The notes under the pieces: model-generated
Told to the model about the DNA's origin: nothing
Databases searched by the model: none
Seen by the model: the letters and a program-made list of their open reading frames with translations, nothing else
Shown: positions 53,060-64,000 of the stretch, one piece after another
How positions within the stretch are numbered: the first letter of the stretch is position 1
How the letters are laid out: every line of letters begins with the position of its first letter
Position numbers and translations under genes: made by a program
Source of the DNA: Candidatus Accumulibacter contiguus
Lineage (GTDB): Bacteria; Pseudomonadota; Gammaproteobacteria; Burkholderiales; Rhodocyclaceae
Direction: 5' to 3'
DNA length: 64,000 nt
Assembly (NCBI RefSeq): GCF_012940005.1
Contig: NZ_SPMX01000010.1
Location: forward strand, 62,001-126,000

Positions 53060-54121
53060 CTACTCCCTTCTCGGCATCAGCACCGTATAGTCGAAGTCGA
53101 GCAGCACGCTCGGATCATAACGGCCATCGGTGGTCTGGTAGGGAAAATCCGCGCAGGGCTGGTCCTTGGTGGCGACGGTACGCAGCCGCAGTGCGCCGAT
53201 GTCCTTGCGTCCCGGCACGAGCAGTTGTTCGAGCACTTCCGACCAGGCGTAGACCGTGTCGCCGGCGAAAGCTGGCGTCACATGCCGGCCGCCGTTGATC
53301 GCCGCGATGCTGAAGGCATTGGCCAGCCCATTGTACGAAAGCGAGCGCGCCAGACTGATGATGTGGCCACCGTAGATGAGGCGGCGGCCGAAGCGCCCAG
53401 CAGCCCGTTCGGCCTGCTGGTTGAAGTGCACGCGCGCGGTGTTCTGGTACAGGCGGGTGGCCATCATGTGTTCGCTTTCTTCGATGGTCATCCCGTCCAC
53501 ATGATCGATGCGTTCGCCGACCTGGTAGTCGTTCCAGAGGTCGGTGCTACCGGACAGGGCCGTGTCGTATTGCTCGATCCGGATCCCGGTCGGAACCAGC
53601 AGATCACTGGCGGCAATGGCAGCGGGCAGATCCGGAACGACGCTTTCCGGGGCAGGCGACGCCGGGTCGCGCTTGCGGACCATGACCCAGCGGCAGTAGT
53701 CGAGGGCGATCTGTCCGCGCTGATTGACCCCACACGAGCGCACATAGACGACACCGGTCTGGCCGTCGCTGTTTTCTTTGAGTCCGATCACGGTGGAATC
53801 GGCGCTGAGCGTATCGCCCGGATAGACCGGGTGGCCGAAACGGCCCGTCGCATAACCAAGGTTGGCGACGGCATTGATCGAGATGTCCGGCACGGTCCGG
53901 CCAAAAACCATGTTGAAGGCGAGAAAATCATCCACCGGCGCCCGCGGGAAGCCCAGGCTATGCGCGAAGGTGTCTGCCGAAGTGGTGGCGAAGCGCGAGC
54001 CGGTCAAGGCGGTATACAGCGCCACGTCGCCCTCGGTAATGGTACGTGGCGTGGCGTGTGCGATCGTCTGGCCGACGTAAAAATCTTCGAAAAAGTTGCC
54101 CAGTCTGGTCTTCTCGCTCAC
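53060..54121 (-). CDS. mch: Mesaconyl-C1-CoA hydratase (MaoC-type)
   Basis: 353 residues. Two hot-dog folds: an N-terminal half with FEDFYVGQTIAHATPRTITEGD and HPVYPGDTLSADSTVIGL, and a C-terminal half with YGGHIISLARSLSYNGLANAF and GGRHVTPAFAGDTVYAWSE. It interconverts mesaconyl-C1-CoA and (2R,3S)-beta-methylmalyl-CoA. It is the last gene of the mch-mcl-mct-smt set on this strand, 33 bases after mcl. The family also occurs in the ethylmalonyl-CoA pathway. Confidence 0.88.
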   Translation of the reverse strand: MSEKTRLGNFFEDFYVGQTIAHATPRTITEGDVALYTALTGSRFATTSADTFAHSLGFPRAPVDDFLAFNMVFGRTVPDISINAVANLGYATGRFGHPVYPGDTLSADSTVIGLKENSDGQTGVVYVRSCGVNQRGQIALDYCRWVMVRKRDPASPAPESVVPDLPAAIAASDLLVPTGIRIEQYDTALSGSTDLWNDYQVGERIDHVDGMTIEESEHMMATRLYQNTARVHFNQQAERAAGRFGRRLIYGGHIISLARSLSYNGLANAFSIAAINGGRHVTPAFAGDTVYAWSEVLEQLLVPGRKDIGALRLRTVATKDQPCADFPYQTTDGRYDPSVLLDFDYTVLMPRRE

Positions 54122-54154
54122 GGTATTTTCTCCCCGAGGTATTGAGTCAATGCC

Positions 54155-55210
54155 TTACAGTCCATAAGCGGCGGCTAGCTCCGGATCGCGCCTGGCCACC
54201 AGCCGTGCCAGATCGACGATCACCCGCGCCTGCTTCCAGGTTGCATCATCCTGCATCTTGCCGTCGATCGTCGCCACGCCGCTGCCATCGGGCATCGCTT
54301 CGAGAATGCGCTTGGCAAACAGCACTTCCTTGACGTCGGGACTGAAGACGCGCTTGGCGATGGCGATCTGGTTCGGTGCCAGCGACCAGGCACCCGAGCA
54401 ACCCATCAGGAAGGCATTGCGGAACTGCGCCTCGCAGGCGGCTTCGTCCTTGAGATCGCCGAAGGGACCGTAGAACGAGTGCAGACCGTGCGCCACTGCT
54501 GCATCGACCATGCGCGCAACAGTGTAATGCCAGAGATCCTGCTGGAAGAAGGCGCGCGCATTCTGCCCGGTTTCCTGACCGGGTTCGGGGTCGGCGAGGA
54601 CACCGTAGCCGGGATGGCCGCCACCGACGCGGGTGGTCTTCATGCCGCGTGAGGCGGCCAGGTCGGCCGGGCCAAGGCTCAGGCCATGCATGCGCGGACT
54701 GGCGCCACAGATGGCCTCGACGTTGGTCACCCCCTGCGCGGTTTCGAGCAGGGCATGCAGCAGAATCGGTTTCCTGATCGCGTACTTGGCTTCGAGCAGC
54801 GCAACGTACTGGTCGACGAAATGAATGTCCCACGGCCCCTCGACCTTGGGAATCATGATCACATCGAGCTGGTTGCCGACATGTCGAATGATCTGTTCGA
54901 GGTCGTCGAGTATCCACGGGCTGTTCAAGGCGTTGACACGCACCCACATCGCGGTGTCACCGAAGTCGTTTTTCGACAGCAGGTCGATGAAACCGGCACG
55001 CGCCGCGTCCTTGGCTTCGATGGGAATGGCGTCCTCGAGGTTGCCGCACATCACGTCACACTGCCTCGCGGTTTCAGGCGCCTTGGCGCGAATCTTGTCG
55101 ATGTGCGGCGGAAAGAAATGGATCATCCGTTCCGGCCGCACCGGCAGTTCACGCAGAGGCTGTGGCGCACCGATGGCGAGTGGCTTGTAGAAATGAACGG
55201 GTAGCTTCAT
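54155..55210 (-). CDS. mcl: Malyl-CoA/beta-methylmalyl-CoA/citramalyl-CoA lyase
   Basis: 351 residues of the HpcH/CitE superfamily, starting [21 protein letters not shown]. It shows the TIM-barrel metal and CoA features: [55 protein letters not shown], then [27 protein letters not shown]. This fits the trifunctional lyase of the 3-hydroxypropionate bicycle, which makes beta-methylmalyl-CoA from propionyl-CoA and glyoxylate and cleaves (S)-citramalyl-CoA to acetyl-CoA and pyruvate. Adjacent mch and mct support that role. Confidence 0.88.
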
Positions 55211-55269
55211 GGCTTTTGTCCCTGGTGAAGAAAACGCTGATGGAACCGACTGCCTTGTCGGAGAGGATT

Positions 55270-56490
55270 TCAGTCTGGCCCGGCGACGACGCGCGCATCG
55301 TGCAGGCGGCCGACCTCGGCCTCGCTCAGGCCGAGAATTTCGAGCAGGATCTGGTCGGTGTGTTCGCCGAGGCGTGGCGCCGGCATCGCCGGCAGGCGGG
55401 GCACGCGGCCGAATTGGAGCGGCGTCGCGGGCATCAGGTAGGAGCCGATGCCCGCTTGTTCGGTCATCGTGAACAGCGGATTGTCGGTTGAGCAATCGGG
55501 GTCACAGGCAATGGTTTCCCGTACACTGCGATAGGGACCCCAACTAACGCGGTGGGCATTGAGGATGGCGGCGGCCTCGGCGAGCGTGCGCGCATGGAAC
55601 CACGGTTCGAGCAGCGCAGCAATCTGCTGCCGGGCACGGAAGCGATTACCCTCGTCTTCGAGGTCGAGACCCAGCCGGACGCCGAGCGCCGCGACGGCCT
55701 CCTGCAGGCCGGTGGCCTTGGTCAGGCACCGCCACTGCATGCTGGTGAGGCCGACGACCATCAGGCGCTTGCCGTCGAGCGTTGCGAAATCGCGGCCGAA
55801 AGCGCCGTAGAGATAGTTGCCCTGCCTTGGCCGGTCGGTGTCATTGACCATCACCTCGGCAAGCATGCCGAAATTGCCGAGCATTGCCAGTGCCACATCC
55901 TTCAACGCGAGACGAATCAGTTGCCCTTCGCCGCTCAGCCGCCGGTGTCTTTCGGCGGCGAGCAGGCCCAGGGCGATCATCTGGCCGCTGATGAAGTCCC
56001 AGGCGGGAAAGACATGGTTCACCACTTCCGGCGAGGTGTTTGGCCCGGTCATCAAGGGCAGGCCGAGCTGTGGGTTCAGTGTGTAATCGACTTCCGAGCT
56101 GCCGTCACGGCGTCCGGTCAGATTGACCATGATCAAATCCTGGCGCCGTGCCTGTAGCGTCTCGTAAGCGAGCCAGCCTTTGGCCGGAAAGTTGGTGCTG
56201 AACAGGCCGGCATCGTCTCCTGGTGCACAGATCAGTTGCGTCAGCAACTCCTGGCCACGCGGTTTGCGAAAGTCTACGGCAATCGAGCGCTTGCCCTTGT
56301 TCAGGCCCGCCCAGAACAGGCTGTGTTTGCCGTCGAGCGTCAGCGGCCAGCGGCGATGGTCGAGGCCGCCGCCGAGCGGGTCGAAACGGATGACATCCGC
56401 TCCGAGCTGGGCCAGGGTCATGCCACCCAGCGGTGCGGCGACAAAAGCCGAGCCTTCGACGACGCGCAAGCCCTTGAGGATTCCATCCAT
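55270..56490 (-). CDS. mct: Mesaconyl-CoA C1-C4 CoA transferase
   Basis: 406 residues from [13 protein letters not shown], a class III (CaiB/BaiF) CoA transferase. The N-terminal Rossmann part is [28 protein letters not shown], and the mid-region has [24 protein letters not shown] with an Asp in the usual catalytic position. Mct moves CoA within mesaconate from C1 to C4; this intramolecular transferase is characteristic of the 3-hydroxypropionate bicycle. A GTG 9 bases earlier is an alternative start. It lies 59 bases before the mcl start. Confidence 0.83.
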
Positions 56491-56514
56491 TTTCTTCACC
56501 AATTCTCTTGGTCT

Positions 56515-57744
56515 TCAGATCACGCGCTTCTTGCGCAGTTCGTTGATCTCGTCTGCGGCAAGGCCGAGCAGATCCGAGAGCACTTCGTCGGTATGTTGCC
56601 CGAGCCGTGGACCCAGGTGCTTGATGCGGCCCGGCGTGACCGACAGGCGTGGCAGCACCGAGGGAACGATGACCGTCTCGCCGATGTCCTGCTCGTCGAT
56701 GGCCACCAGATTGCGACGGGCGTGGAACTGCCGGTCGCCGAAAATGTCGGCAATGCTGTTCAAGGGGCCAGCCGGTGCGCCGGCAGCGAAGCAGCGGTTG
56801 AGAAGGTCATCGCGGTGCAGCGAACCGCACCAGTCACGGACGATTTCGTTCACATCATGGCGGTTTTCGAGGCGCGTCTTCTGATCGCCATAGACGTGTG
56901 CTGCGGCCAGTTCGGGTCGTCCCATGGCCATCGCCAGGCGCTCGAAAAGCTTGTCGGTGACGCATGAAATCGCCACCCACTTGCCGTCGTCCTTGGTCGG
57001 AAAATGGCCGTGCGGGCAGGCGAAGTCGTTATGGTTTGGCCCGTGCCGCTCGCGAATCCGACCGAACATGCCGTAGGCCGGTGCCAGTTCGTCGGTGCAG
57101 CGAAACACCGACTCGTACAGGGCGGCATCGATATATTGCCCCTGGCCGGTGCGCTCGCGGTGACGCAAGGCCATCAGAATGCCGATGCAACCGTAGAGTC
57201 CGGTCAGGTAATCGCCAAGGGTGGTCGACCCCGGCGTCACCGGAGTTCCCCTCGGCATGCCGGCGAGGAAGGCGATGCCGCCGACCGCGTGCGCGACCCG
57301 CGCAAAACCCGGTCGGTCGCGGTAAGGGCCGGTCTGGCCGTAACCGGTGACGCGCAGCATGATCAGGCCGGGATTGATCTCGCGCAGGACCTCCCAGCCG
57401 AGGCCCCATTTTTCGAGGGTGCCGGGCCGAAAGTTTTCGCACAGCACGTCCGACTTTTCGATCAGCTGCTTGAACAGTTCGACGCCTTCGGGCAGGTGCA
57501 GGTCGAGGGTCACCGATTTCTTGTTGCGTGCTTCGCTGAGCCAGGCGAGCGTATCCTTGCGCCTGCTCGGGGTTCCGAAATAACGCATCGGGTCGCCGCC
57601 GATCGGGTTTTCGACTTTCAATACCTCGGCGCCGAATTCACTCAGGATGGTGGCGCTGTAGGGTGCGGCGATGACCGTTGCGGCATCGATGACACGAATG
57701 CCCTCAAGTGGCAGCCGGGACCCGGCGGGATCAGTGGTGGTCAT
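56515..57744 (-). CDS. smtA: Class III CoA transferase, SmtA/SmtB type
   Basis: 409 residues. A family III transferase with [31 protein letters not shown] at the N-terminus and [20 protein letters not shown], in which the GDY Asp would be the acyl-enzyme residue. Neighbouring mct and mcl genes suggest succinyl-CoA:malate CoA transferase, which supplies malyl-CoA in the 3-hydroxypropionate bicycle. The paralogue is encoded at 57890-59233. Which of the two corresponds to SmtA cannot be decided here, so the symbol is tentative. Confidence 0.78.
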
Positions 57745-57769
57745 GGGAATCCTCGCGAGGGCCCGTTGA

Positions 57770-57890
57770 TATGAAAGTCGCGCCAGCGACTCGGCAAGCT
57801 CCCCTCTCCACTCGCAGGAGAGGGGTTGGGAGAGAGGGAAACGGTCATGACTTTCATGATCGGGGGATGTCTGGAAAAGACATGACCGTT
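57770..57890 (+). repeat. Intergenic palindromic repeat, copy B
   Basis: The order of parts is as in copy A: TATGAAAGTCGCGCC lead-in, a CCCCTCTCC...GGAGAGGGG hairpin, then AACGGTCATGACTTTCATGATCGGGGG and ending GACATGACCGTT. The last base touches the stop codon of the upstream smt gene (57890), and the element fills most of the gap between the two smt genes. Confidence 0.8.
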
Positions 57891-59233
57891 CAGATGATCT
57901 TGTGTTGCCGTAGCCGCTTGATTTCCTGTGCCGAAATCCCGAGCAGCTCGCGCAGGACCTCATAGGTCGCGTTGCCGAGCGGTGGCCCGAGATTGGAAAT
58001 CCTGCCCGGCGTTTCGGACAGAGTCGGCACGACACCCGGAATCACGACTTCACCCAGACCCTCTTCCTGCAGACGGGCGAGGTTGCCGCGTGCCTGGAAA
58101 TGCTCGTCCTCGAAGATGTCGGCGATACTGTTGAGCTTGCCGATCGGCACTTCGCCGTCGATGCACCGCTTCATGACCTCGCTGCGAGGCATCGAGCCAA
58201 CCCATTCGATGACGATCCGGTTGACCTCGTCACGCGCTGCCAGGCGCTTGCGCTGATTGCCGTAGCAATCGGCAGCCGCGAGTTCCGCTTTGCCCATCAC
58301 CGCAGCGAAGCGTTCGAACATCTTGTCGGTGGTGCAGGCAATGGCGACCCATTTGTCGTCGATGGTGCGGAAGTGGCCATGCGGAACGGCGACGAAGCTG
58401 CCGGCGCCTTCGCGTTCGCGCACCTTGCCGAACAGACCGTACGCAGCGGCAATCTCATCCATCTGGCGGAACACCGCCTCGTAAATGCCGATGTCGATGA
58501 TCTGGCCCTGTCCGGTCGCCTCGCGGTGGCGCAGTGCCAGCAGGATGCCGATCGCGCCGTAGAGGCTGGACATGTAATCCCCCATCGGTGCGGTACCGGG
58601 AACCACCGGCGTTTCACCAGGGAAACCGGCGAGGTACGAGAGTCCGGCAAAACCATGCGCGATGTGCGCGAAACCCGAGCGTCTGCGATACGGGCCGGTC
58701 TGTCCGTAGCCCGAGACGCGCAGCATCACCAGGCCCGGGTTGGCCTTGCTCAACTCGTTCCAGCCGAGTCCCCATTCCTCCATCGTGCCGGGGCGGAAAT
58801 TCTCGATCAGTACATCCGACTTGGCGACCAGCTTCAGGAACAGATCGACACCTTCCTGTTGGCGCAGATCGAGGGTGACCGATTTCCGGTTGCGGCCTTC
58901 GCTGAGCCAGGCCAGCGTCGCATCGTGCCGCTTCGACGCGGTTCCGAAACGGCGCATCGGATCGCCGGCGATGGGGTGCTCGACTTTCAGAATCTCGGCG
59001 CCGAACTCGCCAAGAATCGACGCCGCATATGGACCGGCGAGAAAGGTGCCTACGTCGATGATGCGCAGGCCGCTCATCGGCAGCTTGTCGTTCTCTGTCG
59101 AGCGATCCTGATCCGCATCGTCCTGCTGCGACTGCTTGCTGGCGGAATGATCGCCTGTCGGTGTTCCCTCCGCGTTGCCCGCAAGTCCAGACCGCAGCGG
59201 TGCGGACTCCGTCGAAGCCGTTCCCTCTTTCAT
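57890..59233 (-). CDS. smtB: Class III CoA transferase, SmtA/SmtB type (paralogue with N-terminal extension)
   Basis: 447 residues. The transferase core starts at about residue 53 ([35 protein letters not shown]) and has [21 protein letters not shown] with the catalytic-type Asp. The first 52 residues are a low-complexity Ser/Thr/Gln/Asp-rich extension ([20 protein letters not shown]) that the paralogue lacks. SmtA and SmtB are thought to form a heteromeric succinyl-CoA:malate CoA transferase. The start ATG at 59233 is not fully certain; one nearer the core would be equally in frame. Confidence 0.76.
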
Positions 59234-59459
59234 TGCTGTATCCCCAGACAAGCTCGCCGGAAAACCGCTCAAGGCCCTGACTCGAAACAGGCACGGCACC
59301 GACGCCAGCGGAACAGTATAGGAGCAAATCCGTTTCCCTGGCGCAAAGATCTGAGGATTGCCCTGAATTGGCACCTCGCATGTGCGTCAACTTGCGTTTG
59401 GCCGTATGCTGTGCGCTACTTGCAGGACCGTTCAAGGAAACCCGGAAAGGATGATTTGC

Positions 59460-60317
59460 ATGAGCGAAGTGACAGCAGACTACGCAGAGTGGATTGGCCG
59501 CCAGGAGACCACTGACGACGACCTGAGCCCGACAGCGGCGCTGGCAGCGGCAGCGATGCTCGATGACACGCAGACCGCTCTGGAGGCTGGGAGCGCACTG
59601 CCTCCGCTGTGGCACTGGTTCTATTTTCTGCCCAGGGCGCCGCAGGCCTTGCTCGACGTCGATGGACATCCACAGCGCGGTGGTTTCATGCCCCCGATCC
59701 CCTATCCAAGGCGGATGTTTGCCGGCGCGCGTATGCGCTTCCATCATCCGCTGCGGATCGGCCAGCCGGCACGACGTGTCGCGCTCATTCGCGATATCCG
59801 GCTGAAATCGGGCCGTTCCGGCACCCTGGCCTTTGTGTCGGTGCTCTACTGCTATTATCAGGATGGCCGACTGTGTGTCGAGGAAGAGCAGGACATTGTC
59901 TATCGCGAACCGGGGCCAGCGCTGGCGTGTCCGCGCGTACTCGACTGGCCGCCGTTACCGGCAAACGCCTGCGCACGCATCGTGACGCCAGACCCGAGAC
60001 TTCTGTTCCGCTTCTCTGCGCTGACTTTCAATGCGCACCGGATCCACTACGATCGTCCCTATGCGATCGAAGAAGAGGGCTATCCGGGCCTGGTGGTGCA
60101 CGGACCGCTGACCGCAGTGCTGCTGATGGAACTGCTTCGTCGGGAGGTGGCACGGCCGGTGCAGGAATTCAGCTTCCGGGGACTGGCGCCGCTCTTCGAC
60201 CTGGCACCGTTTCGGATCGTCTGCACCACGCTCAATGAAAGGCAATGCTCCCTTGAGGCACAAGCGCCCGATGGCGTAACGGCGATGAGCGCCAGTGTCG
60301 AGCTCGCGCCGCTTTAA
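59460..60317 (+). CDS. meh: Mesaconyl-C4-CoA hydratase
   Basis: 285 residues. It has a FAS1-type MaoC dehydratase pair: GGFMPPIPYPRRMFAGARMRFHHPLRIG and, after a linker, FRFSALTFNAHRIHYDRPYAIEEEGYPGLVVHGPLTAVLLM with the Asp-His hydratase site. It hydrates mesaconyl-C4-CoA to (S)-citramalyl-CoA. It is divergent from the smt gene at 57890-59233; the 226-base gap must hold both promoters. The stop codon is overlapped by repeat copy D. Its place next to mch, mcl and mct gives the complete half-cycle. Confidence 0.86.
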   Translation: MSEVTADYAEWIGRQETTDDDLSPTAALAAAAMLDDTQTALEAGSALPPLWHWFYFLPRAPQALLDVDGHPQRGGFMPPIPYPRRMFAGARMRFHHPLRIGQPARRVALIRDIRLKSGRSGTLAFVSVLYCYYQDGRLCVEEEQDIVYREPGPALACPRVLDWPPLPANACARIVTPDPRLLFRFSALTFNAHRIHYDRPYAIEEEGYPGLVVHGPLTAVLLMELLRREVARPVQEFSFRGLAPLFDLAPFRIVCTTLNERQCSLEAQAPDGVTAMSASVELAPL

Positions 60318-60364
60318 GGGTCATGACTTTTCCAGGCACTCGGTCGTGAAGGCCGTGACCGTTT
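60316..60364 (-). repeat. Intergenic palindromic repeat, copy D (short form)
   Basis: On the minus strand: AAACGGTCACGGCCTTCACG, then GGAAAAGTCATGACCCTT. The core is recognisable but the G-rich hairpin and lead-in are missing. It starts on the stop codon of meh (60315-60317). Confidence 0.65.
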
Positions 60365-61058
60365 CCGCAGGCGTTGCTCGCATCTTTCCTTGATAAATAC
60401 CCATAATCGATCTTGCGGGGAAACCTCGTGAAGCGCTAGAATCTCATGGCGCCGTGTGGTGATTCGGCGGGAGTGGATTGACCAGGGGGAGGCGATGGCT
60501 GTCGTGCAGCAATGCGTCCGGGCGGGGCTGGTGCGTGCCTCGATGCATGCGCAGCTCTGGCATTCTCTGGCCGATGCAAGCGATCTGCTGCACCATCGAC
60601 TGCTCTCCTGGGATGATCCCCGGCACCTCTTCCGTGGCACGCGCAGGAGGGTGGGCCAGGCGGTCAATCGCCGGCGGATTACCTGTCTGCTGCGGCCAAT
60701 GCCCTTGGCCGCTGGAGCACCAGGGCCAGACTCCGCCCGCTCCTTCCCTGAACACAATTCCTCTCCTTGCCTGCCCCCTGGCGTCCTCCTGGTCGAGCCC
60801 AACCAGGTCTGGAGCCCGGATCACTCCGGCATCCGCCCGGCCCATGCCTGCGCGCCCCTTGTAGCGCTCATCGACCACCGCCAGGTGATCGGTCGGCGAA
60901 TCAACCACCCCATTGAAGCCGTCGTCCGTCGTCTTGACTCCGGGGTCTGCTTGAACTGTTGATGGAACCCAGCCATGCTGTTGGGATGTTTCGAAATTTG
61001 CATACGCAATGATGAATGTGTGTTTTGAGCAACGATTAACGTATTTCGGAGGCAATAC
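60365..61058. other. Intergenic region with transposase relic
   Basis: About 690 bases between meh and the HpcH-related gene. The first 90 bases show nothing. A degenerate IS3-type frame occupies 60456-60962. The last 95 bases hold the likely promoter and the ribosome site (GGAGGC) of the next gene. Confidence 0.5.
60456..60962 (+). pseudogene. Degenerate IS3-family transposase (OrfB) fragment
   Basis: The frame reads VNRRRITCLLRPMPLAAGAP, then LLVEPNQVWSPDHSGIRPA and APLVALIDHRQVIGRRINH. This follows the IS3 OrfB pattern (VNRKRVQRLMR..., PNQVWSTDITYIRLAHGF, YLVAIIDWYSRKVL) with the first DDE Asp kept, as D in SPDHSGI. It lacks the N-terminus and everything after the first catalytic region, and no flanking inverted repeats are seen. 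This is an old insertion, now decayed. Confidence 0.65.
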
Positions 61059-62502
61059 ATGAAGCTCACGCTGACCCACGACGAAATGAATTCCTACTGC
61101 AGCGAGCTGCACGATTCCAATGCAGCTTTCAAGTCCGATTACCCTGCGGACTCCTTTGAGAGGCAGCCGGTGCACACGGTTTACGGAGGTGCCAATCTGT
61201 TCAAGGCCGGTTTTGCTGCCAAATTGGGTGAAGTGGCGCTCAAGACTCTCGACACCTATGCGCCCAACTACCTGGTGTTTGGCCGCGTTCTGGGTCTGCC
61301 GGGGTCGGAAACACTGCCGACGAACCCCATCTACCAGGAAAGCCTGACGCGTGCACTGGAAAGCAATCCCGAGCAGGTGCGCGGGGTCAAACCGGCGGCC
61401 TGGCTGGCTTACACGGTCTTCAACCGGGTGCTGAAAAAGCTGCAGACCGAGCCGATCGAGGACAACCGCATCGATTTCGAGGATGGTTACGGCAATCGTC
61501 CCGACGATGAGGAAGACGGCCATGCCGTCGCGGCGGCCGATGAAGTCGCCAGAGGCATGCGCGAGAATCTGCTCTCGCCATTTATCGGTATTCGCATTAA
61601 AACGTTTTCGGACGAGTGCAAGGTTCGCTCGATTCGTACCCTGGACATTTTCCTGACCCGCCTGGCCGAGAAAACCGGTGGCAAATTGCCACAGAATTTC
61701 ATCGTCACGCTCCCCAAGGTGGTCACCGCGACGCAGGTTTCCACCTGCGCCAGGATTCTCGAGAATCTCGAAGCCCGACTCGGCTTTGCGAAGGATTCCC
61801 TGAGAATGGAGATCATGATCGAAACCACTCAGTCGATCATCAATTACCGGGGGGGAAAACACGGTGCCGCTGCTGGTCGCTGCTGCTGGTGGCCGTTGCC
61901 GCTCGGCGATTTTCGGAACCTACGATTACACGGCCTCGTGCAACATCACGGCGGCACACCAGAGTCATACTCATCCGGCCTGCGATTTTGCCCGCCATGT
62001 GTTGCAGGTCAGCCTCGCCGGAACCGGCATCACCATCAGCGACGGTGCGACCACCAGCATGCCGATCGGACCCCACAAGGCTGCCAGGGACGCAGTGCTG
62101 ACCGCCCAGCAGATGGACGAGAATCGCGCCGTCGTGCATGCTGCCTGGAAGCTGCACTACGATAACATCATGCACTCGATGCGACATGCCTACTATCAGG
62201 GTTGGGATCTGAATCCGGGGCAGTTGCCGGTGCGCTATGCGGCGGTCGATACCTTCTTCCTCAGCGGCCTGCAGGATGCCTCGGCCAGGCTGAACGCATT
62301 CCTGAACAAGGCCGCCCAGGCGACGCTGGTGGGCAATACCTTCGACGATGCGGCGACAGGCCAGGGCCTGCTGAACTTCTTCCTGCGGGGAATGGCGTGC
62401 GGGGCGATCACCGAGCAGGAAGTTCTGGCGACAGGGATCACCCTGGACGAGTTGCGTTCGCGTTCGTTTGTGCGCATTGTCAATAATCGGGCCAAACAGT
62501 AG
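61059..62502 (+). CDS. HpcH/HpaI aldolase-related protein (DUF6986-like; frameshifted)
   Basis: About 480 residues after repair. The start MKLTLTHDEMNSYCSEL is followed by IDFEDGYGNRPDDEEDGHAV, IVTLPKVVTATQVSTC and MEIMIETTQSIINYR, a TIM-barrel metal and acid pattern of the HpcH/HpaI group. A run of seven G at about 61849-61855 has one G too many; with six the frame continues IINYRGENTVPLLVAAAGGR and on to SLAGTGITISDGATTSMPIG. Its function is unknown. It lies 21 bases before the methylsuccinyl-CoA dehydrogenase-like gene, so a role with a CoA-ester or 2-oxoacid substrate is plausible. Confidence 0.75.
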
Positions 62503-62523
62503 CCACCAGGAAGGGAACGAACC

Positions 62524-64000
62524 ATGACTGAGCTCAGGAGCGACATGAGCGCATTACCGTATCTCGAATCAGCCGATTCGGTGATCAGGAAATCACTGAC
62601 CTGGATCAAGCAGCAATGCGTCGGCGGCAAGGGAGTCTCGAACGAGAAACTGGACGAGCACCAGATGGCCAGCTTCGATCTGGCCTGGTGTGCCGCCGAA
62701 TCGACCGCGGCACGCTTTGCGGCCGAATATGCGCGCAAAGCGGCCGCCGCAACGGGCGATGGCGTCTGCCTGGAAGAGCGGATGGCCCGGGTTTTTTGTG
62801 CCGAGGCCTTGCAAAACATCCACAATCGTTTGCGGGCGCGACCGCAGAGTTTCGGTCTGAACGACGCCGATCTGGCGGACCTGGACTCTTCGGCTCTCAG
62901 CCGTTTCTGCCAGAAGCAACTGGATGCAGGCAATCTGGAAGCGCTGGGCAGGGAGGTCATTGCCTTGAACGGCGCCAGCGGTGCCTACCTGCTCGACGAT
63001 CACGCCACGATGATGCAGGACACGTTCCGCAAACTGGCTACCAACGTGGTGATGCCTCTGGCCGAGGAGATCCATCGGGAAGACCGGATCATTCCACCGG
63101 AGATACTCGATCCACTGACCGAAATGGGTTGCTTCGGCCTGTCGATCCCCGAGCGTTATGGTGGTCTCCAGAGCGACGATCATGAAGATAACATGGGGAT
63201 GATCGTGGTCACCGAGGAGCTCTCGCGCGGCTCGCTCGGTGCAGCGGGTAGCCTGATCACGCGTCCGGAAATCCTCAGCCGCGCCCTGCTCAAGGGGGGA
63301 ACCGAAGAGCAGCGGCAAAAGTGGCTACCCCAGGTGGCACTGGGCGATCCCTTGTGTGCCATTGCCGTCACTGAACCGGATACCGGTTCCGATGTCGCCG
63401 CCATGCGCCTCAAAGCGAGCAAGTGCGATGGCGGCTGGATCCTCGACGGCGTCAAGACCTGGTGCACCATGGCTGGCAAGGCTGGACTTCTCCTGGTTCT
63501 TGCGCGCTCCAATCCGGACCGTTCGCTCGGCCATCGGGGGCTCAGCATGTTCCTGGTCGAAAAGGACTCGTATGAAGGGCACGACTTCGAATATCGACAA
63601 GCACAGGGCGGTGTATTGACCGGCCGGGCGATTTCGACCATCGGTTATCGCGGGATGCATTCCTACGAGGTCTTCTTCGACAATGTCTTTGTCCCCGATG
63701 AAAATCTGGTGGGTGGGCCGGCGGGCGAAGGAAAAGGCTTTTACTTCACCATGGCCGGATTTGCCGGCGGGCGTATTCAGACGGCTGCGCGTGCGATTGG
63801 TGTCATGCAGGCCGCTTTCGAACGGGCAGTTTCGTATTCCCAGGAACGTAAGGCATTCGGCAAGCCGATCGGCGATTTTCAGCTCACCCTCGTCAAGCTG
63901 GCGCGCATGGCGACGCTGCTGACCGTTTCCCGCCAATTCACCTACGCCGTGGGCAGTTTGATGGATCAGGGTCAGGGGCAGATGGAAGCCAGCATGGTGA
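62524..64000 (+). CDS. mcd: Methylsuccinyl-CoA dehydrogenase-like acyl-CoA dehydrogenase (partial)
   Basis: 492 residues to the window edge, incomplete. The acyl-CoA dehydrogenase core begins near residue 165 after a long N-terminal extension (MTELRSDMSALPYLESADSV...), as in (2S)-methylsuccinyl-CoA dehydrogenase. Core motifs: MGCFGLSIPERYGGL, IVVTEELSRGSLGAAGSLITRPEI, AIAVTEPDTGSDVAAM, IGYRGMHSYEVFFDNVFVP, GGRIQTAARAIGVMQAAFERAVSY. It makes mesaconyl-C1-CoA from methylsuccinyl-CoA in the ethylmalonyl-CoA pathway. Another acyl-CoA dehydrogenase is possible, since the substrate-specific residues are not assessed here. Confidence 0.75.
   Translation, partial: MTELRSDMSALPYLESADSVIRKSLTWIKQQCVGGKGVSNEKLDEHQMASFDLAWCAAESTAARFAAEYARKAAAATGDGVCLEERMARVFCAEALQNIHNRLRARPQSFGLNDADLADLDSSALSRFCQKQLDAGNLEALGREVIALNGASGAYLLDDHATMMQDTFRKLATNVVMPLAEEIHREDRIIPPEILDPLTEMGCFGLSIPERYGGLQSDDHEDNMGMIVVTEELSRGSLGAAGSLITRPEILSRALLKGGTEEQRQKWLPQVALGDPLCAIAVTEPDTGSDVAAMRLKASKCDGGWILDGVKTWCTMAGKAGLLLVLARSNPDRSLGHRGLSMFLVEKDSYEGHDFEYRQAQGGVLTGRAISTIGYRGMHSYEVFFDNVFVPDENLVGGPAGEGKGFYFTMAGFAGGRIQTAARAIGVMQAAFERAVSYSQERKAFGKPIGDFQLTLVKLARMATLLTVSRQFTYAVGSLMDQGQGQMEASMV

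Follow-up and report, generated by a model that had tools for sequence, protein, structure and literature searches.

A candidate pyruvate-forming variant of the ethylmalonyl-CoA pathway, joined at mesaconyl-C1-CoA, in Candidatus Accumulibacter and Oleiphilus-type bacteria

Here we describe two neighbouring gene modules in a stretch of DNA from the genome of Candidatus Accumulibacter (G000:C2:62001-126000; the whole stretch, 64,000 nucleotides, is referred to as the window) and in the DNA just past its right edge. The products of these modules would meet at mesaconyl-C1-coenzyme A (mesaconyl-C1-CoA) and may together form an ATP-free route from acetyl-CoA, CO2 and 2[H] to pyruvate. Judging from gene content and sequence, we favour the view that the two modules are joined at this metabolite, with the route to pyruvate as the expected main fate of mesaconyl-CoA in three other genomes (G024, an Oleiphilus metagenome-assembled genome (MAG), G025 and G156) and as one of two branches in Accumulibacter. 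A variant of the ethylmalonyl-CoA pathway that ends in pyruvate appears plausible on these grounds, and its strongest support comes from G024, G025 and G156, not from Accumulibacter.

The first module, DUF6986-mcd-mch2-ecm-meaB-ccr, would turn two acetyl-CoA and CO2 into mesaconyl-C1-CoA, by way of ethylmalonyl-CoA (through crotonyl-CoA carboxylase/reductase, Ccr), methylsuccinyl-CoA (through ethylmalonyl-CoA mutase, Ecm) and, last, methylsuccinyl-CoA dehydrogenase (Mcd). One exit from this node, hydration by mesaconyl-C1-CoA hydratase (Mch) followed by a lyase, would yield glyoxylate and propionyl-CoA, the products in which the ethylmalonyl-CoA pathway ends (PMC12290011). The second module, mch1-mcl-mct-smtAB with meh, may provide another exit, in which the product of Mcd would enter Mct directly: Mct would move CoA from C1 to C4 to give mesaconyl-C4-CoA, Meh would hydrate this to (S)-citramalyl-CoA, and Mcl would cleave the latter to acetyl-CoA and pyruvate. 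The predicted net reaction, acetyl-CoA + CO2 + 2 NADPH + ETF(ox) to pyruvate + CoA + 2 NADP + ETF(red), with ETF the electron-transferring flavoprotein, would consume no ATP; it would be driven by the NADPH spent, with electrons regained at the level of ETF, and the fixed CO2 would end up in the carboxyl group of acetyl-CoA, not in pyruvate. To our knowledge, the usual ethylmalonyl-CoA pathway has neither Mct nor Meh.

A sequence-only reading of the window had paired a methylsuccinyl-CoA dehydrogenase-like gene at 62524 with mct and meh, and all three genes are where it placed them. The product of mct (55270..56502, - strand) matches the 2-methylfumaryl-CoA isomerase model TIGR04253 with 844 bits against a curated cut-off of 725. 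It keeps L43, R47, Y136 and the catalytic D165, which are tied to substrate binding and intramolecular transfer (PMC9813914), with R104 replaced by K and I74 by F. An alignment of 25 rows has L or I at position 43 together with R47, Y136 and D165 in all 24 rows of Mct (that of the window and 23 from loci), the remaining row, from L016, being a paralogue (22% identity) in which position 43 is D and position 136 is H. The mcd gene (+ strand) runs from 62524 past the window edge at 64000 to a would-be 64191 (L008:524-2191) and encodes a 555-aa protein whose best solved match, 8ciw (613 bits), is named (2S)-methylsuccinyl-CoA dehydrogenase, the next being 6es9 (319 bits). It has the N-terminal extension and the three-arginine pocket of this enzyme: R252, R376, R421 and E535 of the Paracoccus protein are kept, at positions taken by hand from the printed alignment, with A285 replaced by I and F287 by V (I and I in 8ciw); the arginines, the catalytic glutamate and the methyl-pocket residue A285 are described in PMC5798300. 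Its closest named relatives belong to Candidatus Accumulibacter, the best being L016 of A. vicinus UBA5574 (97% identity). The match to 8ciw, the kept residues and the tree all suggest that the dehydrogenase acts on methylsuccinyl-CoA, as had been supposed.

For the remaining steps towards pyruvate, the product of meh (59460..60317, + strand; probably an internal start in an open reading frame (ORF) that begins at 59382) is homologous to 8huc/8khg (best E 3.5e-68), an itaconyl-CoA hydratase of solved structure that has been called mesaconyl-C4-CoA hydratase as well (PMC9875883). It matches PF13452 weakly (6.9e-6), and no curated NCBIfam model matched it at 1e-5. The mcl gene (54155..55210, - strand; the start is likely an internal ATG, the mechanical ORF extending to 55495) encodes a PF03328 protein annotated as malyl-CoA, beta-methylmalyl-CoA or citramalyl-CoA lyase, closest to 6kin (669 bits) and 4l7z (655 bits). 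Together with mch1 (53060..54121, - strand; MaoC/MC_hydratase family, PF19315 E 7.9e-20, 71.7 bits against a cut-off of 26.5) and mch2 (L008:2204-3385), this gives the genome two PF19315 genes and Mcl, the hydratase and beta-methylmalyl-CoA lyase of the ordinary exit.

The sequence-only reading had advised looking for ccr and ecm beyond the right edge, and regarded their absence as fatal to the idea; as both genes lie 1.4-6.2 kb past that edge, the objection falls away. To the right of mcd follow mch2, ecm (L008:3388-5406), meaB (L008:5390-6445) and ccr (L008:6442-8199), and in mechanical coordinates each gene from mcd to ccr either overlaps the next or is separated from it by 2-12 bases, the spacing expected in an operon. 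Ccr matches TIGR01751 with 557 bits (cut-off 379), as expected of a crotonyl-CoA carboxylase/reductase, and of the CO2-site residues, which we take to be N81/F170/E171/H365, it keeps N, E and H and has Y in place of F, as does 4gi2. The mutase was compared with 40 listed of 428 records from a plasmid collection, and among these it is 59.6-62.6% identical to the 11 best (from Streptomyces, Ruegeria, Paracoccus, Tritonibacter and Methylobacterium), two of which are annotated 'protein meaA', presumably the same enzyme as Ecm, and the rest unannotated. Two further rows, at 55.7%, carry the label 'methylmalonyl-CoA mutase family protein', the next stand at 39.6% and below, and those annotated as scpA methylmalonyl-CoA mutase reach at most 39.3% among the rows listed. 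On this identity gap we take the protein for an ethylmalonyl-CoA mutase and reject an ordinary methylmalonyl-CoA mutase, despite the 'family' label of the 55.7% rows. Of the steps from crotonyl-CoA onwards, the analysis covered Ccr, Ecm, Mcd, Mct, Meh and the lyase, and the window's genome has a gene for each of these.

Two side observations concern these enzymes. The genome holds two more mutase genes (G000:C24:161454-162993 and G000:C96:100938-102486), each with PF01642 in two overlapping pieces, which may reflect frameshifts or other breaks. Its Ccr is 585 aa long with C-terminal CBS domains (two PF00571 stretches), which suggests nucleotide control of the carboxylase. The tblastn match to Ccr spans the CBS part in SAR324 L038 (L038:15964-17700) and in L041 (L041:14975-16741); the frames of G024, G025 and G156 are 422-430 aa long, and the match does not extend over the CBS part. 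A single literature search returned no paper that pairs 'crotonyl-CoA carboxylase' with 'CBS domain'.

The clearest case for the route to pyruvate is made by G024, G025 and G156. In G024 (L039) and G156 (L114), mct-meh-citE lies opposite in direction to mcd-ecm-meaB-ccr, with two other genes between the sets in G024, and in G025 the two sets are on separate contigs (L040 and L103). No Mch was found in G024 or G025 (PF19315, 1e-5) or in G156 (PF19315, 1e-3), all of them possibly incomplete genomes, and their eight MaoC loci include no full-length relative of either mch1 or mch2. It is because no Mch was found that we expect the pyruvate exit to be the main fate of mesaconyl-CoA in these bacteria. 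A divergent Mch hidden in the three genomes was also considered and rejected, within the same possible incompleteness, as the one MaoC locus that aligned to mch1 (L130, over 149 residues) encodes PaaZ. POR_N of pyruvate synthase was not found in the three genomes either. Their Mcds form one clade (support 96/94) in a tree whose backbone is without resolution.

A sample of 293 genomes from the order of G024, in which Mct matches were called at 1e-120 and gene neighbourhoods were read within fetched stretches, places these loci in a wider context. At least 13 of the 293 genomes have an Mct match and at least four have ccr, counts that may be low because at most six candidates per genome were scored for each. 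Mcd lies less than 3 kb from Mct in 11 of the 13 (not in L121 and L123), and meh and citE share the stretch with Mct in five. Mct is present in two of the four genomes with ccr versus 11 of the 289 others (one-sided Fisher 0.010, a comparison chosen post hoc and with small numbers). G040, from the same order, has DUF6986-mcd-mch2-ecm plus ccr, and no Mct at 1e-120 with all six of its candidates scored. Set against the gene sets of G024, G025 and G156, it makes the exit module look swapped, Mch and DUF6986 in the one form for Mct, Meh and CitE in the other. Both exit modules occur in Accumulibacter and also in SAR324 (G023), in the latter on separate contigs.

In the Accumulibacter/Propionivibrio group (24 genomes, G000-G022 and G029), Mct is present throughout, above the cut-off in 23 genomes and in two pieces in one. 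In 12 of 23 loci it is no more than about 10 kb away from mcd, several of the loci being cut by contig ends. Mch (PF19315) is likewise found in all 24. Three genomes of the group have an operon without mch2 (L023 of G008, L024 of G009 and L044 of G029) and just one PF19315 match each, which shares its contig with Mct at a distance of about 1.2 kb, so that the lone Mch gene beside Mct must serve there.

Several observations weigh against the route to pyruvate. Two or more PF19315 matches occur in 18 of the 24 group genomes, isocitrate lyase is encoded in all 24, and Accumulibacter, with mch1, mch2, Mcl and DUF6986, has on paper a complete ordinary exit as well as a gene of the POR family of oxidoreductases. 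Transcription data have been taken to mean that the Accumulibacter pathway serves propionyl-CoA supply and redox balance (PMC12604563). All 13 Mct matches of the 293-genome sample fall short of the TIGR04253 cut-off of 725 bits; G024, G025 and G156 score 571, 558 and 547. Two of the four genomes with ccr in the sample (G040 and G148) have no Mct match. The meh and citE genes of G024, G025 and G156 are assigned by homology only, and all three genomes carry a full-length isocitrate lyase, seen in a search at 1e-3 and in a family scan (1017-1025 bits against 446), a gene that at 1e-40 had seemed missing from G023-G028 and G156. The idea that the route to pyruvate is the only anaplerotic route of G024, G025 and G156 was dropped on this finding, and since isocitrate lyase is present in the group and in these three alike, the pyruvate route would be the sole anaplerotic route in none of the genomes; in Accumulibacter, where the mch/lyase exit is present as well, it would be at most one branch. 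The sequence-only reading had carried the path from Mcd through Mct, Meh and a lyase to pyruvate. Its combination of genes is real, and the order of steps is backed by neighbourhoods that include the three genomes in which no Mch was found; for Accumulibacter it is weakened by the presence of both exits, of isocitrate lyase and of the POR-family gene, and by the competing explanation that follows.

That explanation holds that the two Accumulibacter clusters have separate tasks. Propionyl-CoA and glyoxylate for polyhydroxyvalerate (PHV) and redox balance would come from the ethylmalonyl-CoA operon, which has an mch2 and a lyase of its own, and mch1-mcl-mct-smtAB-meh would re-assimilate glyoxylate and propionyl-CoA (or malate) as in the 3-hydroxypropionate bicycle, with little flux to pyruvate. 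The mct-meh cluster does have an accepted role as the glyoxylate-assimilating half of this bicycle, which again counts against our reading, and there is a likeness to the second cycle of Chloroflexus: mch, mcl, mct, two smt-like genes and meh stand in one cluster, the window's Mct exceeds the TIGR04253 cut-off, carries the residues for intramolecular transfer and is nearest to the Roseiflexus and Chloroflexus enzymes 7xkg (755 bits) and 8apq (750 bits), and the closest to Mcl are 6kin and 4l7z. A path to pyruvate would have no need of the smt-type genes, which are bicycle genes, and mch2 and DUF6986 sit inside the ethylmalonyl-CoA operon. Published work points the same way. Accumulibacter has been listed among bacteria with uncommon bicycle enzymes, and for Kentron, Chloroflexus and Thiosymbion such enzymes have been proposed to assimilate organic substrates or connect metabolite pools (PMC6593406); the ethylmalonyl-CoA genes of Accumulibacter are up under low phosphate, which was taken as propionyl-CoA supply (PMC12604563). 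The bicycle, however, draws its mesaconyl-C1-CoA from glyoxylate and propionyl-CoA, whereas here the adjacent mcd-ecm-ccr operon can supply it too. Free mesaconyl-C1-CoA would be common to both modules and a leak between them hard to prevent; in G008, G009 and G029 the only Mch gene lies beside Mct with no mch2 in the operon; and G024, G025 and G156 are left unexplained. We regard separate tasks as a serious possibility, albeit one that we would not expect to prevail.

A second alternative is that mct-meh-citE of G024, G025 and G156 serves the breakdown of methylsuccinate or itaconate and is a neighbour of the ethylmalonyl-CoA genes without a role in their pathway. Mcd and Mct do occur with meh and citE and without ccr in the stretch, in L118, L122 and L124 and on a plasmid of Paraburkholderia sp. 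D15, one of three plasmids examined among 1019 records with an Mct relative. On this plasmid (L087:4584-14538) mcd and mct overlap by 11 bases and are accompanied by meh-like, citE-like, ETF and CoA-transferase-like genes, possibly a catabolic route for methylsuccinate or its CoA ester via the C1 isomer. On the Variovorax plasmid mct adjoins mcd, and on the Azospirillum plasmid a relative of Mcd with 40% identity lies about 2 kb from the Mct relative. The examined stretches of all three contain no ccr, and that of Paraburkholderia no ecm. Taken with the neighbourhoods of the order sample, the plasmids show that Mcd, Mct, Meh and a lyase recur together, whether ccr accompanies them or not. Methylsuccinate is degraded to acetyl-CoA and pyruvate in Pseudomonas and Cupriavidus (PMC12290011, PMC9875883), over methylsuccinyl-CoA, mesaconyl-C4-CoA and citramalyl-CoA. 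In those bacteria, however, the dehydrogenase acts on the C4-CoA ester, so that no Mct is needed, whereas the dehydrogenase described here looks like the C1 (2S) type, and the step from C1 to C4 would fall to Mct. Nor does a purely catabolic module fit G024 and G156 well, as the sole mcd of the locus sits with ecm-meaB-ccr and no Mch was found for a separate exit, and the Mcds of the three genomes fall into their one supported clade, whose placement relative to the others is without resolution. Even if this explanation held, mesaconyl-CoA derived from ethylmalonyl-CoA would still have only the Mct exit among the exits found, and we consider it unlikely. That G024, G025 and G156 instead run the ordinary pathway on unusual enzymes, the Meh-type protein hydrating mesaconyl-C1-CoA itself and CitE acting as the lyase for beta-methylmalyl-CoA, is very improbable: the hydratases are assigned by homology only and citE-type lyases can be promiscuous, but the co-encoded Mct, with its intramolecular-transfer residues kept, would have no job, and the window's Meh has itaconyl-CoA hydratases as its relatives of solved structure.

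Returning to the route to pyruvate, we tentatively propose, from the comparison of gene sets, a natural, ATP-free and oxygen-tolerant pathway from acetyl-CoA and CO2 to pyruvate via Mct, Meh and citramalyl-CoA lyase, which would replace the Mch/lyase exit in Oleiphilus-type bacteria and run parallel to it in Accumulibacter, tied to stored polyhydroxybutyrate (PHB), with DUF6986 working as the lyase alongside Mch where the pathway takes its other form. The DUF6986 gene (61059..62502, + strand), of the CitE/malate-synthase superfamily and absent from the sequence-only reading, is a candidate for this role in the ethylmalonyl-CoA operon. Among the 29 loci L016-L044, 25 have it upstream of mcd (the exceptions being L030, L039, L040 and L041), as does G040, and its conserved motifs align with an Mcl/CitE profile (HHalign probability 96.3, E 1.7e-9, 136 columns). 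A sequence search for solved relatives gave no match. Its fold model has a mean pLDDT of 62, and Foldseek returned almost only malate synthases, with one malyl-CoA lyase at rank 41 of the 50 listed hits and no match at E 0.001 or better; since the model is weak, these matches are a hint only and the HHalign comparison is the better evidence. G027 and G028 have DUF6986 beside mcd yet no ccr or PF19315 match was found in them, for which the proposed lyase role does not account. In the window the two PF22484 halves fall into two frames (61059-62165 and 61864-62502, with the break at about 61860), either an assembly error or a real mutation; L016 has the gene in a single open frame (480 aa), and so do the other 13 relatives aligned with it (448-480 aa). 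Further occurrences are at L158:4381-5811 and in L038, L042 and L043.

The remaining genes of the region complete its layout. From left to right, the - strand of the window carries mch1, mcl, mct and the pair of smt-like genes, after which meh, the DUF6986 gene and mcd lie on the + strand. The smt-like genes encode family III CoA-transferases, and their names, smtA and smtB, we take from synteny with Chloroflexus. The smtA-like gene (56515..57744; an internal start is likely, the ORF reaching 58035) matches PF02515 at 3.6e-115 with all NCBIfam matches under the cut-off, and the smtB-like gene (57890..59233; again with a likely internal start, the ORF reaching 59374) matches NCBIfam family III CoA-transferase models, all under the cut-off. 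After ccr come a quinone-oxidoreductase-like gene (qor, L008:8328-9305) and a MaoC gene for a PhaJ-like (R)-enoyl-CoA hydratase (L008:9465-9917), with a phasin gene further on (L008:13059-13526), hinting at a link to stored PHB.

In general, the parts of this system are familiar and their wiring would be new. The region shares ccr, ecm, a meaB-type GTPase gene, mcd, mch and a CitE-superfamily lyase gene with the ethylmalonyl-CoA pathway of Rhodobacter, Paracoccus and Methylorubrum, whereas G024, G025 and G156 retain Ccr, Ecm and Mcd with no Mch found. Both the ethylmalonyl-CoA pathway (PMC12604563) and bicycle enzymes (PMC6593406) are already in print for Accumulibacter. The nearest printed statement that we found for a sludge organism concerns Candidatus Contendobacter, a glycogen accumulator that uses the ethylmalonyl-CoA pathway for PHV and whose mesaconyl-CoA is also assigned to glyoxylate and dicarboxylate metabolism; in contrast to the scheme presented here, the accessible text of that paper names no Mct, Meh or pyruvate route and has no occurrence of 'mct' (PMC8956781). 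In a literature search judged mostly by titles and the beginnings of abstracts, and covering few subscription journals, we recognised no paper in which citramalyl-CoA and pyruvate are linked, in nature, to the ethylmalonyl-CoA pathway. A 2025 proposal joins a CETCH (ccr-type) module to a pyruvate exit through a C4-specific dehydrogenase, as synthetic biology only (PMC12290011), and since a similar link has been proposed as a synthetic construction, the existence of a natural one would make matched enzymes readily available.

Together, these findings describe what would, if true, be a new wiring of a known pathway, leading from acetate and CO2 straight to pyruvate. Acetyl-CoA is usually converted to pyruvate by the oxygen-sensitive pyruvate synthase or, indirectly, via the glyoxylate shunt. 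A route that dispenses with pyruvate synthase, the glyoxylate shunt and ATP would alter models of growth on acetate, alkanes and PHB in Accumulibacter, which serves as a model for biological phosphorus removal, as well as in Oleiphilus-type bacteria, which we take to be hydrocarbon degraders.

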